Below, one piece after another: positions 1-34,106 of a stretch of 34,106 nt of DNA. The notes under the pieces were generated by a model. It saw only the letters and a list, made by a program, of their open reading frames with translations. It was not told where the DNA came from and made no database searches. The DNA lies in the IMG/VR virus record IMGVR_UViG_3300032246_000095, positions 1 through 34,106 of that record, one strand, 5' to 3'. Each line of letters opens with the position of its first letter. The first letter of the stretch is position 1. This DNA is from a virus. A program made the position numbers and the translations under genes.

Positions 1-657
1 ATCTACACCTACCAAGCGGGTTCTACAACGCCCCTAGCGTCATACACCACTATCAATGGCAACATTGCCAACACCAACCCTATCGTCTTAGACGCATCAG
101 GCAGACCGCCTACAGATGTGTGGTTGACCTATGGTGTTTTTTACAAGTTTGTGGTTAAAACAAGTGCAGCAGTCACCATAGGCACTTACGACAACATTTA
201 TGGAATCATAGGTGTGCAAGGTTCAACAGGAACCACGATTCCAACGGGTCTTATTTCTTTGTGGTCAGGCGCTATTGGTAGTGTTCCTACTGGCTGGTAT
301 CTTTGCGATGGAACAAATGGAACGCCCGATTTGCGTGACCGATTTATTATCGGCGCAGGTTCAAGTTATGCGGTCAATGCAACTGGTGGCGCTACATCTG
401 TAACGCTGACAACCAGCAATATGCCAGCGCATACGCATACAGTTACAGACCCAACACATACCCATGTCCAAGGTGGTACAGCACTCAATATTGCATCAGG
501 AAATTATGTTCAGGGTGGCGCTAGTAATCAAGTTCCTTATAGCACAACAAGCACAGCCGCTGCATCAACAGGAATTAGCATTAACACCGCTGGTTCAGGC
601 ACTTCATTTAGCATATTGAATCCATACTACGCCTTGGCCTACGTAATGAAGGCTTGA
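1..657 (+). CDS. Tail fibre with C-terminal phage tail collar domain (5' end missing)
   Basis: The reading frame is open from base 1, so the gene is cut by the window edge; 218 residues remain. The first part (about residues 1-75) resembles the head-binding or neck region of the tailspike at 21020, with the shared pattern IYTYxAGxTTP, NPIxLxxxGRxPT and YDNIxGI. A collar domain follows (GLISLWSG, PxGWYLCDGxNGTPDLRDRF, GGA, and a histidine-rich PAHTHTVTDPTHTH stretch that in this family binds metal). The C-terminus NPYYALAYVMKA is the usual end of collar-domain fibres. It is expected to sit at the virion tail and contact the host surface. An internal ATG at 118 is not the real start, because the homologous region lies upstream of it. 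The next gene starts 1 base after its stop. Confidence 0.85.
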   Translation: MYTYQAGSTTPLASYTTINGNIANTNPIVLDASGRPPTDVWLTYGVFYKFVVKTSAAVTIGTYDNIYGIIGVQGSTGTTIPTGLISLWSGAIGSVPTGWYLCDGTNGTPDLRDRFIIGAGSSYAVNATGGATSVTLTTSNMPAHTHTVTDPTHTHVQGGTALNIASGNYVQGGASNQVPYSTTSTAAASTGISINTAGSGTSFSILNPYYALAYVMKA

Positions 658-658
658 C

Positions 659-880
659 ATGGACAACCAGCAAATATTCAATATTGTGGTTTCCTGTGCG
701 GGTTTCTTGGCAGGGTGGGTGCTGAACAACATTACTAAAAGCCTGAATCGATTAGAAGACAGGCTAGAAGATGTCCATGTGCGCTACGTCACCAAAGACG
801 ATTACCGCAGGGACATTGATGAGCTTAAAGACATCTGCAAGCAGATTTTTGACAAGTTGGACAAAAAGGCTGACAAATGA
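659..880 (+). CDS. Small membrane-anchored coiled-coil protein, copy 1 (lysis cassette)
   Basis: 73 aa. One hydrophobic segment at about residues 7-25 (FNIVVSCAGFLAGWVL) is followed by a charged, heptad-like tail rich in Asp, Lys and Leu. It starts 1 base after the collar fibre stop and overlaps the next gene by 4 bases, so it belongs to the lysis cassette. Single-span proteins with a cytoplasmic charged tail in this place are often called holin-like or spanin-like, but I see no lipobox and no family motif that decides. A diverged second copy lies at 33625-33846 with 9 of 73 residues changed, several of them clustered in the linker after the membrane segment (VHV against FPQ). Confidence 0.7.
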   Translation: MDNQQIFNIVVSCAGFLAGWVLNNITKSLNRLEDRLEDVHVRYVTKDDYRRDIDELKDICKQIFDKLDKKADK

Positions 881-1344
881 TTGAGCAAGCCGCCAAAGCC
901 ATAGGAGCAGTTGCTGCGGCGGTGGCGGCGATAGGCGGGTCTTATACGCTTGCTGACAAGATGGGCCTATTCCGTGACCCCATTCTGAAATGGTCGCCCG
1001 AGCATTTTGAGATTTCTAACGGCAAAGCCAGCGGCGAGTTTAAGGTGGTGGTGGCTCGACAAAAGATTCGGGATGACTGTGAAGTCACTAATTTCAAAAT
1101 CGAGGTCAAAGATGCGGATTTTGTCGTCCATCCAGCCGCGCCAAGCATTTCTACGTTTAGTGGGCCAGCTTCAGATGTTGTGGATAAGTTTGGGTATAAA
1201 TTTACGTTTACGCCCGAGGTGCAGAAAAAGATTGCCCACGGTGACGCAACGCTGATGGCGCACATCAAATACAAGTGTCCCGAAGGTGAGGTGGTCATCA
1301 ATTACCCGAACCACAAAAATCTAACTTTTAGGATTGCATCATGA
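877..1344 (+). CDS. Unknown protein with N-terminal membrane segment and beta-rich exported domain, copy 1
   Basis: 155 aa. An Ala- and Gly-rich hydrophobic helix (about residues 5-25) could act as a membrane anchor or uncleaved signal. The rest looks like a small beta-sandwich: alternating polar and hydrophobic strands such as GEFKVVVARQKI and KFTFTPEV, with two cysteines (in DDCEV and KYKCPEG) that could form a disulfide outside the cytoplasm. It overlaps the upstream gene by 4 bases and the putative holin gene by 4 bases. Its position suggests a role in lysis or envelope passage. I do not recognise a named family. A partial second copy begins at 33843. Confidence 0.7.
   Translation: MIEQAAKAIGAVAAAVAAIGGSYTLADKMGLFRDPILKWSPEHFEISNGKASGEFKVVVARQKIRDDCEVTNFKIEVKDADFVVHPAAPSISTFSGPASDVVDKFGYKFTFTPEVQKKIAHGDATLMAHIKYKCPEGEVVINYPNHKNLTFRIAS
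1033..1140 (+). repeat. First copy of the 108-base exact terminal repeat
   Basis: See 33999-34106. This copy is internal, 1032 bases from the window start, so the window is not a simple terminally redundant molecule. Confidence 0.9.
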
Positions 1345-1856
1345 TTACTTTACTGTCCACCATCGTGTCATTCTTAATGGGCGGCTTGCCCAAGCTGTTA
1401 GAAGCATTCCAAGACCGTGCTGACAAAAAGCATGAGCTTGCTTTAGCCCAAATGCAGATTCAGCGTGAGCTAGAAATGCGTAAAGCAGGGTTTGAGGCGC
1501 AAGAACGCATTGAACACATCAAGTCTGAGCAGCTAGAAATTGAAACAAAATCGTCAGAAAAAACGGCTTTAATTGGCGCACAGCAAGCGGAGATGCAAGC
1601 TATCTATGCTCACGATATGAGCCTGAACGAAGGGACTAGCCAATGGATGCACAATTTAAGAGCGTCAGTAAGGCCCGTTATCACTTACGGCTTCTTCTTT
1701 CTCCTAGTGGCAATCGACCTGACCCTAGCATGGCATGGTATTGCTTCTGGCGTTACTTTTGAAAAGCTAGCAGAGCAACTTTGGGATAACGAAACCCAAA
1801 CCTTGTTTGCGTCCATCATAGCGTTTCACTTTGGCGGCAGAGCATTTGGCAAATGA
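1341..1856 (+). CDS. Putative holin (GTA-holin 3TM-like)
   Basis: 171 aa. A short hydrophobic N-terminus (LLSTIVSFLMGGLPKLL) is followed by a long charged helix (about residues 25-100, rich in Glu, Gln and Lys). Two C-terminal hydrophobic segments follow: VITYGFFFLLVAIDLTLAWHG and the region around TLFASIIAFHFGGRAFG. The motif WMHNLRASVRPVITY and the C-terminal FHFGGRAF resemble the holin-of-3TMs family first described from gene transfer agents. It directly precedes and overlaps the endolysin gene by 4 bases. The endolysin lacks any export signal, so a holin must be close by, and this is the best candidate. Confidence 0.7.
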   Translation: MITLLSTIVSFLMGGLPKLLEAFQDRADKKHELALAQMQIQRELEMRKAGFEAQERIEHIKSEQLEIETKSSEKTALIGAQQAEMQAIYAHDMSLNEGTSQWMHNLRASVRPVITYGFFFLLVAIDLTLAWHGIASGVTFEKLAEQLWDNETQTLFASIIAFHFGGRAFGK

Positions 1857-2332
1857 ACGTCAGCGCCAAAGCCCTGAAGGTCATTAAGCACCATGAAGGC
1901 ATAAGGTTTACCCCATACCGCTGCCCCGCAAAGCTGTGGACTATTGGTGTGGGCCATGTGCTTTACCCTGAACAGGGCAAGCTAAAGATAGAAGAACGTG
2001 ATGCATATCTTCTACGACCTGAAGACAACCGCAAGTTTTCTGTAGAAGAAGTAGATTCCATACTTGCGGCAGACTTACAGCGGTTTGAGCGTGGCGTAGA
2101 AAAGTTTGTGCCTGTACATTTAACACAAGGTCAGTTTGATGCCCTGGTGTCGTTTTCGTTCAATGTAGGGCTAGGCACACTCCAACGATCTACGCTACGT
2201 CAAAAAGCCCTGCGTGGCGATATGGCAGGCTCAGCAGATGAGCTACTTAAATATTGCATGGCAGGTGGCAAAATTCTTAAAGGGCTTCAAAACAGGCGCA
2301 TAGATGAACGCGCCATGTTTCTTAGTCTTTAA
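1853..2332 (+). CDS. Endolysin, T4-type lysozyme family GH24
   Basis: 159 aa. Hydrolyses the glycan strand of peptidoglycan to release progeny. Glycoside hydrolase 24 signature: HHEG with catalytic Glu15, then PYRCP, then WTIGVGH. The spacing Glu15-8 residues-Cys24-5 residues-Thr30 matches the family triad, with Cys where T4 lysozyme has Asp20; that substitution is common in phage endolysins. The later DALVSFSFNVG and LLKYCMAGGKILKGLQNRR motifs are typical. There is no signal peptide and no N-terminal signal-anchor, so the enzyme depends on a holin. Last plus-strand gene before the convergent leftward operon. Confidence 0.95.
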   Translation: MNVSAKALKVIKHHEGIRFTPYRCPAKLWTIGVGHVLYPEQGKLKIEERDAYLLRPEDNRKFSVEEVDSILAADLQRFERGVEKFVPVHLTQGQFDALVSFSFNVGLGTLQRSTLRQKALRGDMAGSADELLKYCMAGGKILKGLQNRRIDERAMFLSL

Positions 2333-8395: not shown

Positions 8396-8629
8396 ATGGC
8401 TGATCGGAATTGTAAAACTTGCGAGTTCTTTAAGAACCAGCAAATCATGGGCATTTGCAGACGCTACCCCATGCACAACAACAAACATGAAAATGATTGG
8501 TGTGGTGAACACACGCTAAAAATGGTGGAAGTTATACCGCTTCAGGTGTACGACATCACCACAGACCAAACCACCGAAGTCAAAAAACGCAAATACGTGA
8601 GGAAGCCAAATGCTCAAGCCGCTGCGTGA
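8396..8629 (+). CDS. Four-cysteine zinc-binding small protein
   Basis: 77 aa. Cys6, Cys9, Cys21 and Cys36 (CKTCEFF ... GICRRYP ... NDWCGEH) form a probable zinc knuckle in the first half; the tail (KKRKYVRKP) is very basic. AAAGGA ribosome site. The GxCRRxP ... ENDWCGE pattern is common in aquatic phages. Nucleic-acid binding is plausible but not shown. Overlaps the GroES-like gene by 20 bases. Confidence 0.65.
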   Translation: MADRNCKTCEFFKNQQIMGICRRYPMHNNKHENDWCGEHTLKMVEVIPLQVYDITTDQTTEVKKRKYVRKPNAQAAA

Positions 8630-8867
8630 TCGTGTGGTAGTACGTCCCCAAGTACGTACATTGTCTGAAATCATCTATGTGGACAACAAAGAACCCTTTA
8701 ATGAGGGTACAGTCATGTCTGTAGGCCCAATGGTGACAGAAACCCAAGTGGGTGACTTCATCAAATACGGCAATGGCGACTACCTGAAGTGGCCTACCCA
8801 TATGATTGACGGTCAGATGTATCAAATCATTCAAGAAGCGGACATTTGCGCCGTTGTGGAGGCTTAA
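8610..8867 (+). CDS. GroES-like co-chaperonin (Cpn10 family)
   Basis: 85 aa, slightly shorter than bacterial GroES (about 95-97). Pattern: KPLRDRVVVRP at the N-terminus, FNEGTVMSVGPM (the beta-barrel GxVxxVGxG region), VGDFIKYGNGDYLKW and YQIIQEADICAVVE at the end, as in Cpn10. The mobile-loop region (about residues 17-29, RTLSEIIYVDNKE) differs from bacterial GroES but keeps an EIIY hydrophobic tripeptide where GroES has its GroEL-contacting IVL. It would cap host GroEL to fold a phage protein, as T4 gp31 does for the coat. Start chosen for its GAGGAAG ribosome site. Confidence 0.8.
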   Translation: MLKPLRDRVVVRPQVRTLSEIIYVDNKEPFNEGTVMSVGPMVTETQVGDFIKYGNGDYLKWPTHMIDGQMYQIIQEADICAVVEA

Positions 8868-9903: not shown

Positions 9904-10012
9904 GGCCAACATCAAAAAAGAGATAGAAGCAGGTAAGCCACCTAAACAAGCGGTGGCTATTGCCTATTCTGTGCAGCGTAAGGCCAAAGAAGACAAAAAG
10001 CCCAAAAAGTGA
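9866..10012 (+). CDS. 48-aa basic phage protein (KQAVAIAY type)
   Basis: [20 protein letters not shown] then [20 protein letters not shown] and a Lys-rich end. The NIKxExxAGKPxKQAVAIAxxxxRKA pattern is very common in phages and prophages as a small basic protein of unknown function. CAGGAG ribosome site lies inside the previous gene. Its stop overlaps the GTG start of the methyltransferase (GTGA). Confidence 0.7.
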
Positions 10013-11223
10013 AAATTACCCAAAAGAAGGTCACAGAGCTAATTCCATATGTAAAAAACAGCCGCACCCATAGCGATGAGCAAGTGGCTCAAATAGCGGC
10101 AAGCATTAAGGAATTTGGCTGGACTAACCCAATACTGGTAGACGGTTCAAACGGCATCATTGCAGGGCATGGCCGCCTCATGGCTGCACGTAAGCTAGGC
10201 TATACAGAAGTTCCAACCATTGAGCTTGCAGACCTAACCGAAACCCAAAAAAAAGCCTACATCATTGCCGACAACCGCCTGGCGTTAAACGCAGGGTGGG
10301 ACAATGAAATGCTGACCATCGAGCTTAACGACTTGCTGGCAGATGGCTTTGCGTTAGAAATATTAGGCTTTGACCCTAAAGAGCTTGATGCGTTGCTCGA
10401 GCCTGAAATGGTAGAGGGGCTAACGGATGAGGATGCTATCCCTGACGTTCCTGAAGAGCCTAAGACCAAGCTAGGCGACATTTACCAATTAGGCAAACAC
10501 CGCCTGATGTGCGGGGATTCCACAAGCATTGACGCTGTGGATAAGTTGATGCCCGAAACGGCTAATATGATCTTTACCGATCCTCCATATTTGATGGACT
10601 TTACTGGTGGCATCCATGCGGACGGTAGTAAATCGTTTAATTCAAAACATGGCGGTATCAAAAACGACAAAATGTCGGAAAAGGATGGCAACGACTTTTT
10701 GGACGCTATAAATAGCGTAATAACATCTAAAGTTGACGGTGCGTTTTACATAACCTTTTACCGTTTAGGCATCAACAAGTACTTTGCTAGTATGGATCGA
10801 ACAGGCCTTAAATGCCGTTCATTGGTAATTTGGGATAAAGGCAATCACACACTAAGCAATAGTGATTACATGAGCATGTATGAGCCTATGTTCTATGGGT
10901 GGGTGAACAATCATAAATTTTATGGCGGTAAAAATGGAATGGATATTTGGCGAATCAAACGAACAGCCAAAAACGATTTACACCCCACAATGAAGCCTGT
11001 TGAATTGGTTGAAAAAGCTGTACTGGACGGAAGCGCAATTAACGGTATTGTGTTGGGTTTGTTTGGTGGTAGCGGCAGCACTATGATTGCTTGCGAAAAG
11101 CAAAACCGACACGCTAGGCTTATGGAGCTAGACCCAAAATATTGCGATGTAATCGTAAGGCGGTGGGAAGACTTCACGGGCAAAAAAGCCGTTCTTTTGA
11201 CAGAAACGACAGAAACTGCTTAA
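10009..11223 (+). CDS. ParB/Srx-domain fused DNA methyltransferase (N6-adenine or N4-cytosine, beta class)
   Basis: 404 aa from a GTG. Residues 1-110 form a ParB/sulfiredoxin-like domain ([46 protein letters not shown]). The methyltransferase domain has catalytic motif IV DPPY at residue 191 and the S-adenosylmethionine motif FGGSGST at 352, followed by [20 protein letters not shown]. Motif IV before motif I gives a beta-class order. No restriction enzyme is adjacent, so it is an orphan, expected to protect phage DNA from host restriction or mark it. The ParB-like part may supply a DNA contact. It lies directly upstream of the terminase genes. Confidence 0.9.
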
Positions 11224-30946: not shown

Positions 30947-33625
30947 ATGGATGAGCTTGGCGCACTAATTTTGGGCAAAGCGCCCGAAACATCAGCTAAA
31001 CAGTTAACAGAAAAATCTGCATCTGTCATTACAGATCAGTTGCTAGACAGCTTGCGCCGTGTTGAAAGCGGCAAAGATCGGTTTGCCATCAACAAAGAGA
31101 CTAAGGCTATGGGGCCTTATCAATTCTTGCCTGAAACCGTGCAAATGCTTCATAAGCAGGGCATTGAGTTCAACCCATTTAATGAAGAACAATCAAGAGC
31201 AGCAGCCAAAACCTATCTTGAACAATTGGTACAACGCAACAAAGGCGATGTAAACAAAGCATTGGCGCAATACGGCGGGTTCATTACCAAAGACCCTACG
31301 GCTTACGTCAACAAAGTAACTAGCGGCGCACAAACGCCACAAATCGCACCTGAAAATGATTTGGGTTCATTGATACTTGGCAAGCCGCAAGCCCAACCAC
31401 AAGCCCAACCACAAGTTCAACCATCCCAAACCCCAATTGCAGGCCCTGAACAAATCCCAACAGGCGGTTTGACAGCGCCAGCACCACAGCCAACCGTAAT
31501 GGGTCAGTTGGTCAATAGATTTATGCAACCGCAAAAAGCTGTGCCATCAATGGTTGCGTCTGCTTTAGAAGCAAGGCAAAAAATTGGTGAACGTGTTGCT
31601 GGTGGCATAGACACTTTATATGGTGTTGTGCCGCAACTTTACGGCGCAGGGGTTCAAGCACTAGCTAGAACAGCCAACACGCCTGAACGTGCTGAACAGA
31701 TTGGACAGGCAGCGGCGACAACAATTGAAAAGCCGTTAGGCAGGGCATTGGGCATTACAGGCAAAGAAACATATCAGCAACCTTTGGGCGGCATTACAGA
31801 GCCAATTGCCAAAGAGATAAACAGAATGTTTAACGTGCTTGGCATGACCCCTGAACAGATTTCAGAGAAAACAGGCATACCTGCCGCCGACATTAGAAAC
31901 ATGGTGGTTATTGGTGGCGCAGCCGTACCACAGGCGTTAAGAGAGGCTGCGCCTGTTGCCAAGCAAGCAGCGCAGGCCGTAGCAAAACCTATCCGTGAAG
32001 CCGCTGCAGAGCTTGAGGTGGTCAGGCCATTGTCCAAAGAACAAGCGCAGGCGCAATTTCAAGCCAAACAAGCCCCTGCAGGTAGCGCAGGTGCGGCAGC
32101 GGTTCAAAACAATCCTTACTTTGGAAAATTTACAGGTGAGGAAACAGGCGGCAGAGAAACTTTCCCCGCTATCAAGCTGACCAAAACGCCAACTGATGTT
32201 CCTATTGCAGAGCAAAAACTTAGGTCTGAGCTATTTCAAGAAGTGTTGCCAGGTCTTAAGCCAAGGCCAGGCGTGGTGACGGGCAACGAAAACCTATTAC
32301 GCAATGAACACGCCTTGGCAAACATGGCAGAGCCATCAGAGCTTGGTTTGAAGATGAAGCAGCAAATTGCCAATGAACAGATTGGCCTCTCAAAGTTTGC
32401 TGAAGACCGTGTAAACGCCACAGGCGCATCACGCAGCTTAATCAATGATGAACAACGTGGTGGTCGCATCAATGATGTATTTCATGGAATTGACCCTAAT
32501 GAACCATCTTCTGCAAGCATTACAGGTTATTTGAATCAAGCCAAAAAACAAGTTTACGATTCAGCGTTTGAAAGAGTTGGCAACAATCAAATTAAAACCA
32601 CACACGTTGATGATTTGCTAAAAAACCCACAATGGGCGGCAGGTCTAAAAATTAAAGGCGTGGAAGGCGTACAAGCCGCAGCCAAAGAATATTTGACCCT
32701 TGCTAAAACAGTTGGGTTTGAAGATTTAACTGGCAAAATGCATCCACCTGGTTCTGTTGCTGCTTATGACGCTGTGCGTAAAGCCATGAATGCCGAGTGG
32801 TCTCCACAAAATTCTAGGGCAATTCAAAAAGTTAACGAAGCTATTGATAAAGACATAGCAGCGGTAGCTGATCCCAAACTTTACAAACTTGGCGACAAAA
32901 TTCATCAAGTAGAAAAAACCATTTTGGGTTCTAGTGGCATTAACAAATTATTTGGTGAGGTTGATGTAAATAATGTTCTTACATCATCAACACCATTAGA
33001 AAAAATCCCATCTAAGCTAAACAACTTACCTAAAGATCAATGGCGGCACATTCGGGACACATTGTCTGAATTGGCTAATGGCAGGGTCAGGGGTGCGCCT
33101 GAAGGTATGCCGCCTGTACCGCAAGAGTTACGTCAATCAGCCGCAGCCGCTGTTGCTGAAATTGATGGTGCTTTAGCCCGTGAAGTGTACGCAGCAGGTA
33201 CAAAAAATGCAGGCGAATGGAGTTCACAAAAAGCCAACAATGTTCTGAATTCAATCATAGGCCAAAAAATTGTAGAAACATTCCCACCTAGCGAAGTGCA
33301 GAAATTTCATGCATTGAACTATGTTGGTCACTACACACCACCACTAAAGTACGAAGGTGCTGCTTTGCAAGGCCGCCGTGTTGGTCTCATTGAAAAGGGC
33401 TTGCCTGCTACTGGAGCAACTGTTGGAGGCGCAATAGGTGCATTCTTGGGCGAGGAAGCTGGCGCAGGTGCAGGTGCATTTATTGGTCGTGAAGCGGGTG
33501 CAAGAATGCAAGCTGCTAGGGCCGCAAAAGCTGAAGCTAAAGCCGCAAAAAAAATGGAAAAAGAAATGGAAAAGGCTGCAAAATTGGGCCAACAAACTGG
33601 CAAAAACAAACTTAGCGATATGTAA
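30947..33625 (+). CDS. Ejection protein with N-terminal lytic transglycosylase domain (gp16 position)
   Basis: 892 aa, longer than P22 gp16 (609). Residues 25-115 form an SLT-type domain: LLDSLRRVESGKDRFAINKE (Glu in RVESGKD as the likely catalytic acid), MGPYQFLPETVQML, and NKGDVNKALAQYGG. A Pro- and Gln-rich linker (about 145-185) follows, then a long helical body with Ala-rich segments. Near the C-terminus a glycine zipper (GATVGGAIGAFLGEEAGAG and AGAFIG) could insert in membrane, followed by a Lys- and Ala-rich end. It would open the cell wall and form part of the DNA channel during injection. The next gene overlaps its stop by 1 base. Confidence 0.85.
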   Translation: MDELGALILGKAPETSAKQLTEKSASVITDQLLDSLRRVESGKDRFAINKETKAMGPYQFLPETVQMLHKQGIEFNPFNEEQSRAAAKTYLEQLVQRNKGDVNKALAQYGGFITKDPTAYVNKVTSGAQTPQIAPENDLGSLILGKPQAQPQAQPQVQPSQTPIAGPEQIPTGGLTAPAPQPTVMGQLVNRFMQPQKAVPSMVASALEARQKIGERVAGGIDTLYGVVPQLYGAGVQALARTANTPERAEQIGQAAATTIEKPLGRALGITGKETYQQPLGGITEPIAKEINRMFNVLGMTPEQISEKTGIPAADIRNMVVIGGAAVPQALREAAPVAKQAAQAVAKPIREAAAELEVVRPLSKEQAQAQFQAKQAPAGSAGAAAVQNNPYFGKFTGEETGGRETFPAIKLTKTPTDVPIAEQKLRSELFQEVLPGLKPRPGVVTGNENLLRNEHALANMAEPSELGLKMKQQIANEQIGLSKFAEDRVNATGASRSLINDEQRGGRINDVFHGIDPNEPSSASITGYLNQAKKQVYDSAFERVGNNQIKTTHVDDLLKNPQWAAGLKIKGVEGVQAAAKEYLTLAKTVGFEDLTGKMHPPGSVAAYDAVRKAMNAEWSPQNSRAIQKVNEAIDKDIAAVADPKLYKLGDKIHQVEKTILGSSGINKLFGEVDVNNVLTSSTPLEKIPSKLNNLPKDQWRHIRDTLSELANGRVRGAPEGMPPVPQELRQSAAAAVAEIDGALAREVYAAGTKNAGEWSSQKANNVLNSIIGQKIVETFPPSEVQKFHALNYVGHYTPPLKYEGAALQGRRVGLIEKGLPATGATVGGAIGAFLGEEAGAGAGAFIGREAGARMQAARAAKAEAKAAKKMEKEMEKAAKLGQQTGKNKLSDM

Positions 33626-33846
33626 TGGACAATCAGCAAATTTTTAACATCGTGGTGAGCTTTGCAGGCTTTTTGGCTGGCTGGGTGCTCAATAACATCA
33701 CCAAAGGTCTGTCACGTTTGGAAGATAGACTAGAAGAATTCCCGCAGCGTTACGTGGCTAAAGACGACTACCGCAGGGACATTGACGAGCTAAAAGAAAT
33801 CTGTAAACAGATTTTCGACAAGCTGGACAAAAAGGCTGACAAGTGA
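33625..33846 (+). CDS. Small membrane-anchored coiled-coil protein, copy 2
   Basis: 73 aa, ungapped diverged copy of the gene at 659-880 (64 of 73 residues identical). Same hydrophobic segment and same charged tail; changes cluster after the membrane segment. It directly follows the last ejection gene (TAATGG overlap), whereas copy 1 follows a collar fibre gene. Confidence 0.75.
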   Translation: MDNQQIFNIVVSFAGFLAGWVLNNITKGLSRLEDRLEEFPQRYVAKDDYRRDIDELKEICKQIFDKLDKKADK

Positions 33847-34106
33847 TTGAACAAGCTGCCAAAGCCATAGGAGCAGTTGCTGCGGCGGTGGCGGCAATAG
33901 GCGGGTCTTACACGCTTGCTGACAAGATGGGGCTATTTCGTGACCCTATCTTGAAGTGGTCGCCTGAGCATTTTCAAATTTCTAGCGGTAAAGCCAATGG
34001 CGAGTTTAAGGTGGTGGTGGCTCGACAAAAGATTCGGGATGACTGTGAAGTCACTAATTTCAAAATCGAGGTCAAAGATGCGGATTTTGTCGTCCATCCA
34101 GCCGCG
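33843..34106 (+). CDS. Membrane-anchored beta-rich protein, copy 2 (3' end cut by the window)
   Basis: 88 residues remain, starting from a GTG where copy 1 (877) has ATG. Ungapped alignment to 877-1140. The first 156 bases differ at scattered, mostly silent positions; the last 108 bases (33999-34106) are identical to 1033-1140. In a circular reading the gene continues at 1141. Confidence 0.7.
   Translation, partial: MIEQAAKAIGAVAAAVAAIGGSYTLADKMGLFRDPILKWSPEHFQISSGKANGEFKVVVARQKIRDDCEVTNFKIEVKDADFVVHPAA
33999..34106 (+). repeat. 108-base exact direct repeat of 1033-1140 at the window end
   Basis: Identical from GGCGAGTTTAAGG to CATCCAGCCGCG. It is the exact part of a 482-base ungapped similarity (33625-34106 to 659-1140). 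Mismatches resume directly upstream (AT at 33997-33998 against GC at 1031-1032). Confidence 0.9.

Follow-up and report, generated by a model that had tools for sequence, protein, structure and literature searches.

The window analysed here, the whole 34,106-base virus record IMGVR_UViG_3300032246_000095 of IMG/VR, is very probably an assembly of a P22-like phage of about 33 kb from a sample that held at least two strains differing at one tail-fibre slot. We favour this explanation because relatives show both arrangements of the slot, because alleles of the adjacent gene are associated with the arrangement, because duplicates of the repeated genes were not found in relatives, and because both arrangements occur together in single metagenomes. 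The first strain would carry a tail-collar fibre gene in the slot, followed by its own allele of a gene for a 73-aa protein (1–1032); in the second strain, which would lack the fibre, the gene for an ejection protein would run straight into its own allele of the 73-aa gene (33625–33998). The two strains would share sequence from 1033 on, over 108 bp or more. The assembler may have entered through the fibre-plus branch, gone once around the circle, come back on the fibre-less branch and come to a stop within that shared sequence. Most likely, the true genome would then be a 32,966-bp circle (1141–34106) of the fibre-less strain, with 1–1032 as an overhang from the fibre-plus strain.

The window encodes a P22-type portal protein (PF16510, E = 5e-177), a P22-type coat protein (PF11651, E = 2e-33) and a large terminase subunit (PF04466, E = 5e-38), all matched in Pfam; by the criterion of portal, coat and terminase, its predicted proteins make it a P22-like podovirus. 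Two uncultivated P22-like phages from Manatee Spring, MW202520 (33.6 kb) and MW202674 (36.6 kb), both deposited as circular complete genomes, likewise have P22-type portal and coat proteins. Their terminases are 73–78% identical to that of the window, and the order of structural genes followed by lysis genes is common to all three. The last large gene of either phage matches the ejection protein of the window weakly or partially. At the position of the slot, MW202674 has a small gene directly after this last large gene, with nothing extra, and MW202520 has a gene for a tail spike that does not match the window fibre. A GroES-like co-chaperonin, encoded at 8610–8867 (plus strand; PF00166) of the window, is annotated in both phages too. 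At 10009–11223 (plus strand), the window also encodes a 404-aa protein in which a ParB-like N-terminal domain is fused to an N6/N4 DNA methylase (PF02195, PF01555). Among genome contigs, the nearest terminases from bacterial bins belong to a Burkholderiales MAG (L318, 70% aa identity) and a betaproteobacterial MAG (L319, 66%), hinting at a betaproteobacterial host.

In a self-comparison of the window, 33625–34106 aligns without gaps to 659–1140 over 482 bp, with 86.9% identity (E = 6e-168). This pair is the sole self-match within the window, which, together with the E-value, rules out chance similarity of the two copies. As the preliminary description had stated, the final 108 bases are identical (33999–34106 and 1033–1140) and the 374 bases before them are diverged, with 63 mismatches. 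The features at the two ends are as follows.

1–657, plus strand: 3′ part (218 codons) of the tail-collar fibre gene, fibre-plus haplotype (PHROGs tail fibre/tail collar: phrog_8469, E = 1e-29; phrog_1800, E = 2e-25)
659–880, plus strand: 73-aa gene, allele A (fibre-plus clade), with 93–95% nucleotide identity to five fibre-plus relatives and 78–82% to fibre-less ones
877–1344, plus strand: gene for a 155-aa protein (open reading frame), allele A up to 1032 and shared from 1033
1033–1140, plus strand: 108-bp tract equal to the last 108 bases of the contig by self-alignment; the putative merge point
1341–1856, plus strand: 171-aa membrane protein, probable holin (phrog_6637, unknown function)
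1853–2332, plus strand: endolysin, a phage lysozyme (PF00959, E = 7e-36; phrog_7)
30947–33625, plus strand: 892-aa ejection protein with a transglycosylase (SLT) domain (PF01464; phrog_2013/342)
33625–33846, plus strand: 73-aa gene, allele B (fibre-less clade), with 90–97% nucleotide identity to L083, L084, L252 and L248 and 80–82% to fibre-plus relatives
33843–34106, plus strand: 5′ part of the 155-aa gene, allele B up to 33998; its last 108 bp equal 1033–1140, and the contig ends inside the gene

The mismatches fall at 46 of the 222 positions in the 73-aa gene and at 17 of the 152 positions at the start of the 155-aa gene. They change 9 of 73 residues in the former, the same figure as in the preliminary description, and 4 of 52 in the compared part of the latter, counting the ATG/GTG start. 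Had the divergence continued, the chance of 108 identical bases would be between about 3e-6 (at 11% divergence) and 2e-9 (at 17%). On the 5′ side of the copies, homology ends abruptly: the sequence upstream of 659, which is the 3′ end of the fibre gene (1–657), is unrelated to that upstream of 33625, which is the end of the ejection protein gene (30947–33625). The earlier view of the overlap as two diverged alleles merging at an identical tract is right but incomplete, since the alleles differ by a whole gene, the fibre found only on the 1–1032 side, and not just by substitutions.

The direct-terminal-repeat test of CheckV requires the two contig tips to share a repeat no shorter than 20 bp (PMC8116208). 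In the window, the longest prefix that equals a suffix is 0 bp, and the inverted terminal repeat at the tips is likewise 0 bp, ruling out a natural direct or inverted terminal repeat. Because an exact repeat is needed at both tips, a CheckV-type test would not call the window finished; the expectation that a terminal-repeat test would report a finished circle is therefore wrong for the standard exact test. Only an overhang-tolerant test would call the window circular.

Relatives were collected by scanning viral contigs with the 155-aa protein, the ejection protein C-terminus, the fibre and the 73-aa protein, which gave some 300 loci, or 261 after removal of duplicates. We restricted the count of slot contents to the 69 deduplicated loci in which the ejection gene is intact at its end and is followed by enough sequence. 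The region in relatives is a single gene run with one variable slot, flanked by the last ejection gene and the 73-aa gene; a tail-collar fibre of about 250 aa occupies it in 27 of the 69 loci and is absent from the other 42. The order ejection–fibre–73-aa, followed by lysis genes, is found in L004 and L085, and the fibre also lies ahead of the 73-aa gene in L003, L166, L242 and L246. The order ejection–73-aa, without the fibre, is found in L083, L084, L252 and L247. Each end of the window is thus an intact arrangement found repeatedly in relatives, fibre-plus on the left and fibre-less on the right. The window fibre, which lacks approximately its first 26 codons off the contig edge, has 65–69% aa identity to full-length genes (245–256 aa) in the same slot of close relatives. 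The slot is probably an accessory tail-fibre site that tunes host recognition. Different arrangements also co-occur in samples other than the window's own: metagenome 3300032330 contains both (fibre-less L084 and fibre-plus L166), and metagenome 3300023179 contains three (L004, L247 and L249). Given that the arrangements coexist in single metagenomes, a contig that starts fibre-plus and ends fibre-less is to be expected.

In L250, L251, L244 and L249, genes of at least two other types, with the endings ...STVYIVQGEGM and ...GTVVKVPYYAV, occupy the slot 5′ of the 73-aa gene, which makes the slot a general insertion site. Further downstream, L083, L084, L085, L166, L246, L248, L251 and L252 have another gene in place of the 155-aa gene, between those for the 73-aa and 171-aa proteins. 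The replacement in most close relatives is an unrelated membrane/coiled-coil gene of about 107–111 aa (MSDE..KSALIEKITFAILPLLFSCVVYLM...), and L252 carries another gene, of about 90 aa, at this place. Judged by these gene orders, the lysis region contains a second slot whose gene can be swapped. The 155-aa protein itself has 95% aa identity to its counterparts in L003 and L004, and has no match in PHROGs or Pfam.

The sequences flanking the slot follow its contents. On the right-hand side of the window, the ejection protein has 95–97% aa identity to those of fibre-less L083 and L084, with the same C-terminus; its gene ends in GKNKLSDM and overlaps the 73-aa gene in a TAATG stop/start, as it does in L083 and L084. 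By contrast, the ejection gene of fibre-plus L004 and L085 ends in TNKISDLK-TAA, and a spacer then leads to the fibre ATG. In a tree of the 73-aa gene, allele A groups with five fibre-plus loci and L244 in one clade (support 96/98), and allele B groups in another (support 97/98) with L083, L084, L252 and L248, all four of which lack the fibre at this place; bootstrap support for the two clades is 96–97%. In L248, the gene ahead of the 73-aa gene has no match to the ejection protein. Linkage between allele and arrangement is strong but not absolute, since L244 belongs to the allele A clade yet has a different tail gene in the slot, and L004 is fibre-plus yet has a 73-aa allele outside that clade. 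We conclude from the tree that the two 73-aa copies in the window are alleles of different lineages rather than sister paralogues.

Past the merge point, the genes at 1341–2332 have 93–95% nucleotide identity to fibre-less L083 and L084, compared with 84–91% to fibre-plus relatives. The first of these genes, which encodes the 171-aa protein, a probable holin given its hydrophobic C-terminal segment and its position before the endolysin, follows the same pattern (93–95% versus 88–91%). The greater similarity of 1341–2332 to L083 and L084 suggests that the body of the window comes from the fibre-less strain and that 1–1032 is the overhang. These values would also suit a false join, in which 1–1032 came from a quite different phage and had no true continuity at 1032/1033, and a tract of about 108 bp suffices to mislead an assembler. 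We consider such a join very unlikely, however, because fibre-plus L003 and L004 share the order fibre–73-aa–155-aa–171-aa–endolysin, with 84–94% nucleotide identity on both sides of 1032/1033, and the order associated with allele A is therefore a real natural order. A false join would differ from the mixture of two strains only in whether the allele A strain shares sequence after 1033.

The left edge of the contig speaks for a mixture of two strains as well. Strains share a highly conserved 5′ segment of the fibre gene (identity of up to 100% over 78 bp), just before the first base of the window, and the sequence diverges from there on. The contig edge, lying exactly at the end of this segment, would be a natural branch point of the assembly graph, and the start of the identical tract (1033–1140) would be the other. 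CheckV describes odd k values such as 55, 77 and 99 (PMC8116208). We dropped an attempt to identify the assembler from the overlap length: 108 bp is no usual k and, although possibly k − 1 for k = 109, is not diagnostic.

The preliminary description had left a choice between two strains merging at the identical tract and a tandem duplication in one genome, and the relatives clearly favour the former. If the 73-aa/155-aa region were tandemly duplicated, the copies would be separated by unseen sequence, with the 5′ end of the fibre gene in it, and would have undergone divergence and partial homogenisation. The contig does contain two directly oriented copies, and gene conversion could leave an identical 108-bp tract beside diverged sequence. 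Nevertheless, none of the 86 loci carrying the 73-aa gene has a second copy of it, and none of the 85 carrying the 155-aa gene has a second copy of that gene; likewise, when 25 whole records (several of 27–36 kb) were searched, 18 matched, each with a single copy. In addition, the upstream neighbour of the fibre in relatives is the ejection gene and not a second 155-aa gene. A recent duplication would be expected to leave the window copies as nearest neighbours in the tree, yet each groups with different phages in a separate clade. We therefore regard a tandem duplication as highly improbable. There is, in our view, a very slight chance that the two 73-aa/155-aa copies of a single phage flank an accessory fibre gene as direct repeats, and that recombination between them lets the phage gain or lose the fibre; if so, the locus would be a reversible host-range switch. 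Near-copies in direct orientation at opposite ends would also be seen if the genome were linear with natural terminal repeats, or if a prophage edge lay there, but the probability of this is negligible, as the repeat does not include the first base of the contig and is preceded by 658 bp inside a truncated fibre gene, both ends lie inside coding genes, an exact terminal repeat is lacking (0 bp), and relatives are deposited as circular.

A mixture of two strains connects the window to two known effects. Microdiversity and genomic islands, the latter enriched in host-recognition genes, break short-read viral metagenome assemblies (PMC6487183). As in those breaks, de Bruijn-graph assembly would be disrupted by a host-recognition gene that not all strains carry, and the alternative arrangements coexist; unlike them, the window keeps both branches as the tips of one contig, giving a near-circular overlap and not a simple gap. 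Separately, a circular assembly broken at a k-mer overlap gives terminal repeats of k-mer length (PMC8116208). Like such contigs, the window has an exact tract of roughly k-mer length near its opposite ends and would derive from a circular template; unlike them, its tract lies 1,032 bases inside the left tip, behind a diverged branch, leaving a terminal repeat of 0 bp. Exact terminal-repeat tests can thus miss a circular phage genome when strain variation sits at the break, and such circles would be recovered, and the variable gene exposed, by searching for a diverged repeat that runs into an exact tract. In aquatic P22-like phages, the tail-fibre slot, with its fibre present, absent or replaced, offers a host-range locus that lends itself to testing. 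Specialists will find neither the missed circle nor the slot surprising. Very probably, the near-circular contig arose through ordinary mixing of strains and is not a new type of genome end; it would combine a break at a host-recognition island (PMC6487183) with the k-mer-length repeat of a circular template (PMC8116208).
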